From: an uncultured Ectothiorhodospiraceae bacterium
GTDB lineage: Bacteria > Pseudomonadota > Gammaproteobacteria > UBA6429 > Thiohalophilaceae
Direction: 5' to 3'
Assembly (NCBI GenBank): GCA_947259575.1
Contig: CAMYMU010000056.1
Location: 1-37,696 of the forward strand
DNA: 37,696 bases
Positions within the stretch are counted from its first letter, which is position 1; every line of letters begins with the position of its first letter. The notes under the pieces are model-generated. The model saw only the letters and a list, made by a program, of their open reading frames with translations. It searched no databases and was not told the DNA's origin. The position numbers and the translations under genes are program-made. This document shows, piece after piece, positions 753 to 6,150 of the stretch.

Positions 753-1181
753 TTATAGCTCTAGGGCCAGTGGCTGTTGTGCCTGATGCTGGTGATCTGG
801 ACCAGCATAGACTTTGAGTTTGCGGAACATTGCGCGACCCAGTGGGTTCTTTGGCAACATACCTTTTACAGCAGTCTCGATAATACGCTCAGGGTGAGTC
901 GCACGAACCTTTTCTACGGTGCGGGACTTCAAACCACCAGGATAACCACTGTGCTTGTAATAGGTCTTGTCTTTTTCTTTGTTACCGGTCACACGGATTT
1001 TCTCGGCGTTGACGATAACTATATAGTCACCCGTGTCCACATGGGGGGTGTAAACCGCCTTGTGTTTACCGCGCAGGCGGCTGGCAACTTCACTGGCAAG
1101 ACGGCCCAGAACAACGTCTGTGGCGTCGATTACAAACCAGTCACGCTTAACCTCATGGGCTTTTGCGCTGAACGTTTTCAT
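753..1181 (-). CDS. rplM: 50S ribosomal protein L13
   Basis: Early-assembly protein of the large ribosomal subunit. The 142-residue length equals that of E. coli L13. Diagnostic blocks are [20 protein letters not shown] at the start, [19 protein letters not shown], and [20 protein letters not shown] near the end. The ATG at 1181 is preceded by TTGGAGCAG, a good ribosome binding site. It is the first gene of rplM-rpsI and is preceded by a well-formed promoter and a hairpin close to the start codon. L13 autoregulation through the mRNA leader has been reported in E. coli, so the hairpin may be the regulatory site here. Confidence 0.98.
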
Positions 1182-1245: not shown

Positions 1246-1274
1246 ATAGTACAGAAAAACCGGTCCCGTCACAA
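1246..1274 (-). promoter_or_regulatory. Promoter of rplM-rpsI
   Basis: On the minus strand TTGTGA (1269-1274) is separated by 17 nt from TACTAT (1246-1251). Transcription would begin near 1239, giving a short leader that contains the hairpin at 1200-1230. Confidence 0.65.
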
Positions 1275-1433: not shown

Positions 1434-1466
1434 AAAAAAATGGCGCGGAAAAGGGGGATCCGCGCC
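1434..1466 (-). terminator. Rho-independent terminator of the candidate sRNA
   Basis: A perfect 8-bp GC-rich stem (GGCGCGGA at 1442-1449, TCCGCGCC at 1459-1466) with a 9-nt loop is followed on the minus strand by A and seven T. It could also stop read-through from the ABC transporter genes further upstream. Confidence 0.85.
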
Positions 1467-1562
1467 GTTTAAGAATACCACCATAAGGAGGATGGAGGAG
1501 TTAAAACTTTTGTCTTCCACTACATCGCTGGTTACCTAACCAGGAAGACGTAAATCAGTAAT
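1434..1562 (-). ncRNA. Candidate small RNA with C-rich loops
   Basis: A stand-alone transcription unit of about 127 nt in the gap between rplM and the ABC permease. A strong promoter (TTGACA, 17 nt, TATATT) sits at 1567-1595 and a strong terminator at 1434-1466. Between them the RNA can fold a 5' domain closed by GUCUUCC/GGAAGAC (1543-1549 with 1512-1518) containing an inner UGGUU/AACCA hairpin. A second hairpin (1478-1484 with 1492-1498, one U-U mismatch) has the loop CCUCCUU, and the terminator stem has the loop UCCCCCUUU. Exposed C-rich loops complementary to Shine-Dalgarno sequences are known from sRNAs such as Xanthomonas sX13. No protein-coding frame of useful size is present. I cannot assign it to a named family. 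Confidence 0.75.
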
Positions 1563-1566
1563 TGCT

Positions 1567-1595
1567 AATATAGTAATTTTGTTAACTTCTGTCAA
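1567..1595 (-). promoter_or_regulatory. Strong sigma-70 promoter of the candidate sRNA
   Basis: A consensus -35 TTGACA (1590-1595 on the minus strand), the optimal 17-nt spacer and TATATT (1567-1572). It is the best -35/-10 match I found in the window. Predicted start is near 1559-1562. Confidence 0.75.
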
Positions 1596-5343: not shown

Positions 5344-6150
5344 CTATCCAGACAAATTTCTTCCATAAAAAATCTCTAACATCTCCCGCTCTAATGCTTT
5401 GTGAATTTTCTTTCGTGATATCGAAGACAGATCGGTTTCATCTATACCGAATATATAATTATCCAGCTCGATTTCCTTTAACAACATTTTAGTGTGGAAT
5501 ATATTTTCCTGATAAACATTCACGTCAATCATTTGATAAAGCTTTTGAATATCTTTACCAATAAAATTTTGAATAGAATTAATCTTATGATCGATATAGT
5601 GTTTCTTACCACGCACATCTCGGGTAAAACCTCGGACACGATAATCGATGATAACGATATCAGAATCAAAACTATGAATCAGATAGTTCAAGGCTTGCAG
5701 TGGTGAGACGCGTCCACAAGTCGATACATCGATGTCTGCTCTGAACGTGCTAATCCCTGCATCAGGATGACTCTCTGGATAGGTGTGCACAGTGATATGA
5801 CTCTTATCCAGATGCGCTGCGACGGCCTCCGGAGTGGGTCCTGGTGATTCTTTATTGGATATAGACTCGGCGGCAATAGGTTCTTCCGAGATCAACATCG
5901 TGACACTCGCACCTTGTGGATCATAATCCTGGTGTGCAATATTCAGAATGTTAGCACCAATAAGATCGGAAACATCGGTTAAAATATTCTTTAAGCGTTC
6001 AGCATTATATTCTTCATCGATATATTCAATATACGCTTGTTGCTGTTCACGGTTAGCAGCGTAATTAATATCATAGATATTGAAACTAAGGGTCTTGGTA
6101 AGATTATTGAACCCATGTAGTTTTATTTTTCTTTCGGCTTTTTTTATCAA
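5344..6150 (-). CDS. speD: S-adenosylmethionine decarboxylase proenzyme
   Basis: Decarboxylates S-adenosylmethionine to supply aminopropyl groups for spermidine synthesis. The 268-residue chain aligns along its whole length with the E. coli-type SpeD ([44 protein letters not shown]). Self-cleavage should fall between Lys116 and Ser117, leaving a pyruvoyl group on the alpha chain. The only usable start is TTG at 6148-6150: an in-frame TAG lies eight codons upstream and no ATG or GTG occurs before LHGF. TTG would lower expression. A spermidine synthase is not in this window. Confidence 0.95.

Follow-up and report, generated by a model that had tools for sequence, protein, structure and literature searches.

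The window analysed here, a 37,696-nt stretch of DNA from an uncultured Ectothiorhodospiraceae bacterium, carries between an ABC permease gene and rplM a segment that, judged from its sequence, very probably represents a genuine small-RNA (sRNA) gene lacking annotation. An earlier note on this DNA had described a promoter leading into a segment with a closed 5′ domain that ends in a terminator, and all of these elements were recovered on the minus strand at the positions given in Table 1. The predicted 127-nt RNA has a folding energy of -37 kcal/mol (z -3.13), a value equalled by 1 of 200 shuffles, and the gene scores 63.9 bits with R1, a covariance model built in this analysis.

Table 1. Features of the sRNA gene and of its downstream neighbour in the window
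Feature	Positions	Strand	Basis
-35 element TTGACA	1590..1595	-	promoter scan; kept in relatives
-10 element TATATT, 17-nt spacer	1567..1572	-	promoter scan; kept in relatives
TATATTAG element overlapping the -10 element, recurrent upstream of family members	1565..1572	-	TATTAG counts
Small RNA gene, about 127 nt (predicted)	1434..1560	-	start inferred from the -10 element, end from the terminator
Variable, self-folded 5′ domain	1502..1560	-	fold; length and sequence vary in relatives
Site 1, predicted single-stranded ACUCCU ahead of the hairpin, complementary to GGAG	1496..1501	-	position matches S17S Site 1
Anti-Shine-Dalgarno hairpin, arms CCAUC 1495-1491 and GGUGG 1482-1478, loop 1490-1483 CUCCUUAU (Site 2)	1478..1495	-	
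Intrinsic terminator stem-loop, 8 bp, loop 1458-1450 UCCCCCUUU (Site 3-like)	1442..1466	-	pair covariation
Terminator U-tract, 7 U	1434..1440	-	sequence
Separate rplM promoter, TTGTGA 1274-1269, 17 nt, TACTAT 1251-1246	1246..1274	-	read from sequence
rplM (ribosomal protein L13), usual downstream neighbour in close relatives	753..1181	-	named from sequence

The sRNA promoter matches the consensus at 11 of 12 positions. Since 0.8 sites are expected by chance in the 521-base region scanned at a threshold of 9/12, the case for this promoter rests on its conservation: a site of at least 10/12 was found in 69 of 117 non-redundant regions upstream of recognised family members, compared with 2.4% of mononucleotide shuffles. 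The consensus promoter with a 17-nt spacer that had been claimed is thus borne out. The hexamer TATTAG, by which the element overlapping the -10 sequence was counted, occurs in 56 of the 117 non-redundant family upstream regions (dinucleotide-shuffle mean 7.1), at a distance from TTGAC of 18 in 23 cases and of 24–25 in 15. TATTAG may be either a -10 element shifted by about 7 nt or a separate regulatory element.

Two pairing registers were compared for the hairpin in the anti-Shine-Dalgarno core, ACUCCUCCAUCCUCCUUAUGGUGGU (1501-1477, minus strand), using A2, a set of 24 hand-picked sequences (22 distinct rows) that includes divergent copies from the DNA and Rfam searches. In the CCAUC/GGUGG register every cell is paired in the 22 distinct rows, with one position occupied by U-G in 11, U-A in 7 and C-G in 4 of them. 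For the window sequence the energies of the two registers are near equal (-4.3 versus -4.6 kcal/mol), and the one preferred by RNAalifold was set aside despite its advantage of 0.3 kcal/mol, since it leaves one pair broken in 7 of the 22 distinct rows. The core hairpin has one varying pair only; two-sided changes were counted at zero, its score was reached by 107 of 500 shuffles, and the minimum-energy structure of the full 127-nt RNA pairs this region differently. Sequence support for the core hairpin is thus consistent but thin. A hairpin exposing CCUCCUU had been proposed; a hairpin is present, but the better-supported register exposes the slightly different CUCCUUAU.

The 5′ domain is closed, as had been described, but its sequence is not conserved. 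Its length varies from roughly 16 to 60 nt across the aligned DNA-match loci, among which only the nearest relative, L002, has a 5′ domain of similar length; promoter, core and terminator are kept in most rows. The stretch of 42 nt that precedes Site 1 has a fold energy below -5 kcal/mol, and a last pair at most 3 nt from the site, in 69 of 117 members compared with 22% of mononucleotide shuffles. A C-rich loop is frequent in the 5′ hairpin upstream of the core (L043, L082, L104 and others) and could possibly provide a further pairing site.

The end of the segment is as the earlier note had it, an 8-bp GC stem with a UCCCCCUUU loop followed by seven T. The GC-rich arms (1466-1459 and 1449-1442) enclose a C-rich 9-nt loop, which exceeds the limit of 8 of our feature scan, and the terminator is absent from the list of that scan for this reason. 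The stem covaries strongly: among 48 sequences, two-sided changes occur at 8 of 8 pairs, and the cells that show them number 76, compared with 15.2 in shuffles. CCCCC is held by the terminator loop only, the core loop being CUCCUUAU.

Stems and loops are conserved in related genomes, as an sRNA gene of the kind claimed would lead one to expect. By DNA search 30 of 58 genomes gave a match to the element, and R1 found it in 144 of 369 class genomes at E ≤ 0.001 (own genome counted in both). R1 was built from alignment A1. Most of its 48 sequences were supplied by an exact pattern scan, which partly builds in the invariance of the A1 core; the DNA search, the locus alignment and the class search with the Rfam model RF02278 are independent of the exact pattern. 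The A1 regex left out divergent copies (L002, L020, L022, L023, L027) as well as truncated or unmatched ones (L026, L096, L103, L109 and two of the three L101 copies). The 138 rows behind A1 were reduced to 55, from which seven were then removed by eye (L014, L041, L063, L073, L094 and the betaproteobacteria L080 and L124). At least 119 stretches were obtained by the exact pattern scan of named genomes, and the matches listed include Thiocapsa, Chromatium, Allochromatium, Halochromatium, Thioalkalivibrio, Sedimenticola and Thiodiazotropha, also Thiothrix, Leucothrix, Beggiatoa, Thiomargarita, Arenicella and Acidiferrobacteraceae, together with two betaproteobacteria (Gallionellaceae and Iodobacter). 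Pattern matches in L042 (Levilinea) and L069 (Desulfobulbaceae) were dropped as chance, with 18.8 and 19.2 bits with R1. A mobile origin was likewise rejected, a 171-base query being without a match in 72,556 plasmid and 50,697 phage records. Judged from sequence, the sRNA gene is real, independent and widespread, and the window lies below every Rfam cut-off. In the open literature we found no paper studying this sRNA in gammaproteobacteria; for one strain of Aeromonas salmonicida, the accessible part of a genome paper includes a ‘betaproteobacteria toxic small RNA’ among the annotations (PMC8780938).

That the sequence belongs to no described family, as had been suggested, holds in so far as an Rfam scan of the window gave no family at its cut-off, but the gene appears to be a remote homologue of one. 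The best weak match, RF02278 (‘Betaproteobacteria toxic sRNA’; 25.3 bits, cut-off 50), runs end to end over model positions 1-64 and takes in the hairpin and a UGG-AUUC linker. This family includes the Burkholderia ‘double-hairpin’ RNAs NcS03, NcS05, NcS27 and NcS62, the RNA called bdhR1 being, we assume, NcS27, and Bordetella S17; its ‘toxic’ label is said to originate with Kimelman 2012. The two-hairpin architecture of RF02278 (unpaired CUCCUCC, a hairpin with a C/U-rich loop and an intrinsic terminator) is found in the window RNA, which shares with the family a CUCCUCCA segment, a short hairpin with a C/U-rich loop, the UGG-AUU(C) linker and a GC terminator. In contrast to the Rfam consensus, in which a stem pair is C-G, the gamma copies mostly have U-G or U-A; the copies in close relatives lie mostly before rplM, unlike those of RF02278, and Burkholderia genomes carry 3 to 5 copies, whereas the window's genome has one full copy.

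The RF02278 model matches 24 of 58 genomes, none of them over the cut-off; 21 of the 24 matches coincide in position with the DNA match, and G002, G037 and G050 are without one. In the class set it matches 102 of 369 genomes, with the cut-off exceeded in two of these. At E ≤ 0.001 there was no match in the window's own genome, and none was obtained in 14 named control genomes. Among 16 loci scanned, one exceeded the RF02278 cut-off, the Gallionellaceae locus L080 (51.8 bits), and its core is the common gamma core; the locus of another betaproteobacterium, Iodobacter (L124), is below the cut-off. In the reverse direction R1, which was built without any named betaproteobacterium among its 48 sequences, finds L080 at 67 bits and L124 at 47.9, and the over-cut-off RF02278 copies L155 and L154, from genomes that are presumably betaproteobacterial, at 37.6 and 33.0 bits, chance pattern matches scoring ∼19. 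G259, the genome that carries the strongest RF02278 copy, L154, is absent from the results of the filtered class search with R1; in the locus scan L154 was found.

In 25 of 27 recognised DNA-match loci, rplM lies on the same strand at most 700 nt downstream of the sRNA, an arrangement that would be expected if the ‘sRNA’ were the prematurely terminated 5′ leader of the rplM-rpsI operon. However, the separate rplM promoter, although it scores below the threshold of the promoter scan, is kept in position and motif in the 27-locus alignment and is located between the sRNA terminator and the rplM start codon. Moreover, among the matches listed for the pattern-scan set, rplM is within 700 nt downstream in 51 of 114 recognised copies, whereas 47 lack it over that distance although their records would have room for it, and 16 records are too short; in a few of the 47 rplM lies further off. 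(Loci unrecognised by the core regex are left out of the synteny counts: 3/30, 3/117 and 10/30 in three sets.) The three tandem sRNA copies in L101 also argue against a leader. We rejected the leader reading, to which we give almost no weight, on the strength of the separate conserved promoter, as read from sequence, and the many copies without a nearby rplM, and the same two points make the element most simply a free-standing sRNA gene. The L101 copies, from a Thiotrichaceae genome, place the core in tandem at 5785-6024, with poor U-tracts in two of the three. Within the rplM leader of the window itself, at 1200-1230, lies an inverted repeat, GGCTGTACG...CGTACAGCC, that is absent from relatives in the 27-locus alignment and is possibly an L13-related leader hairpin.

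In Iodobacter the gene row runs from coq7 through two further ORFs, which we read as those of a transporter and an OsmC-like protein, to the sRNA, rplM and rpsI; the L154 and L155 copies are at most about 0.7 kb from coq7, which in the window is about 3.1 kb upstream of the sRNA. Bordetella S17 adjoins coq7 according to the accessible part of its description (PMC11722255). Downstream rplM together with coq7 within 3.5 kb was found for 19 of 114 (matches listed), 5 of 20 and 8 of 30 recognised copies in sets that overlap, and for 0 of 27 in the DNA-match set, where flanks extend only about 1.5 kb. Many sRNA copies are at neither coq7 nor rplM.

The end-to-end alignment of the window RNA with RF02278, including the hairpin and the UGG-AUUC linker, the model matches in both directions, the intermediates L080 and L124 and the coq7/rplM neighbourhood held in common all speak against a separate origin, that is, against an sRNA acting in the same way through C-rich loops but resembling RF02278 through convergence on an anti-Shine-Dalgarno sequence and a terminator. 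Convergence on anti-Shine-Dalgarno sequences and GC terminators comes easily, the window reaches 25.3 bits against a cut-off of 50, and other C-rich sRNAs (LhrC, RsaE, ar14) also give weak Rfam matches; we nevertheless consider convergence improbable. Because the models match in both directions, L080 is intermediate and the coq7/rplM neighbourhood is shared, we read the likeness as homology, with the window sRNA as a probable remote homologue in a gamma sister branch of RF02278, not a formal member. It looks like the gamma branch of a known kind of beta sRNA that has so far been studied in betaproteobacteria.

Described relatives suggest how the RNA could act. The window RNA resembles B. pertussis S17 and S17S in its Site 1 plus Site 2 architecture, its 3′ terminator and its coq7 neighbourhood. 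As reported in the accessible part of one paper (PMC11722255), S17, unlike what is predicted for the window RNA, is a 190-nt precursor trimmed by RNase E to 67 nt, with Bvg-linked expression; it is Hfq-dependent, and the trimmed form, S17S, has two single-stranded sites. The same text states that 92 genes (91 in its introduction) rise without S17, 70 of them complementary at or near the ribosome-binding site, that S17S directly represses BP2158, and that S17S left the exponential growth of E. coli BL21 unimpaired (PMC11722255). NcS27 overexpression, by the accessible parts of two reports, attenuates growth on several substrates, and its role has been placed in metabolic shutdown upon nutrient deprivation (PMC10987360; PMC5688073). 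The activity of S17 was demonstrated in Bordetella (PMC11722255, accessible part), whereas that of the window RNA is predicted from sequence.

Other sRNAs offer more distant parallels. The RNA had been likened to Xanthomonas sX13, with which it has in common C-rich loops set against G-rich mRNA motifs; sX13, as far as its description is accessible, has CCCC/CCCCC loops, lies downstream of polA, occurs in Xanthomonadaceae only and is Hfq-independent (PMC3771888). Membership in the sX13 group was rejected given these differences in location, loop type and reported distribution, and the likeness is reduced to a functional analogy. The alphaproteobacterial CCUCCUCCC RNAs ar14 and CcsR1 also have anti-Shine-Dalgarno-like segments, but the window scores 16.7 and 13.2 bits with these families against cut-offs of 58.8 and 65.3.

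We consider it likely that the gene encodes an sRNA that acts in trans, probably with the help of Hfq, by blocking strong ribosome-binding sites, and that belongs to an old beta/gammaproteobacterial lineage whose beta branch is RF02278. In this model the sigma-70-type promoter would drive an intrinsically terminated RNA of ∼127 nt, in which ACUCCU and the loop of the CCAUC/GGUGG hairpin, two adjacent C/U-rich patches, would mimic the anti-Shine-Dalgarno tail of 16S rRNA, with the terminator loop as a third C-rich patch. With Hfq (an hfq gene in the window's genome scores 102 bits), the RNA would pair with the GGAG-type ribosome-binding sites of strong-Shine-Dalgarno mRNAs and block their translation, its 5′ domain possibly remaining untrimmed or being trimmed in the manner reported for S17. 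By our energy cut, a strong Shine-Dalgarno sequence precedes 32 of 247 predicted starts sampled from the window and 280 kb of its genome, so that such an RNA could have a defined minority of genes as its targets.

Target prediction was carried out on the same 247 start regions. With starts guessed, perfect complementarity of at least 8 nt was found at 3 of 247 starts compared with a mean of 3.8 (range 0–9) for 21 control sequences, and at the window starts, also guessed, the real site beat the reversed one in 14 of 34 only (mean -7.2 versus -7.8 kcal/mol). In the genome there are 4 occurrences of the 17-nt complement with at most 3 mismatches, one of them the gene itself, and 2 of a backwards control. 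Because the control sequences likewise pair with Shine-Dalgarno sites, and the start codons are guesses, the start-region test is a weak one. Repression of many mRNAs, as proposed in the earlier note, is thus backed by conservation, independence from rplM and homology to S17 and NcS27, but target prediction shows no excess over controls. The lack of an excess in the start-region scans would also fit the same sRNA gene having a protein or the ribosome as its main partner, as a sponge or decoy, in place of mRNAs; moreover, there is hardly any variation in the core, which in this sRNA family carries CCUCCUUA, the 16S tail. On the other side, the homologue S17 represses mRNAs at ribosome-binding sites, according to the accessible part of its description (PMC11722255), and we regard a sponge or decoy as unlikely.

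More broadly, we see about even chances that the gene represents an ancient core sRNA that predates the beta/gamma split, was placed at a coq7-rplM locus and serves as a general brake on strong-Shine-Dalgarno mRNAs across much of GTDB Gammaproteobacteria, including many sulfur-oxidising lineages, and that it has gone largely unannotated since the Rfam model is tuned to betaproteobacteria. If so, the betaproteobacterial ‘toxic sRNA’ family would become a wide-ranging sRNA lineage of Proteobacteria, for whose annotation our covariance model can serve, and the sRNA would offer a test of how a mimic of the anti-Shine-Dalgarno tail keeps its selectivity.

In addition to the one full copy, the window's own genome gives a second, weaker model match (G000:C48:14834-14880, plus strand; 36.1 bits; L215 about 1490-1555). 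It directly follows a 148-aa ORF, and its hairpin differs (ACUACA/UGUAGU), exposes CACUCCUCC and is followed by a terminator with an AUCCCCU loop. This match is perhaps a 3′UTR-derived RNA of similar style.
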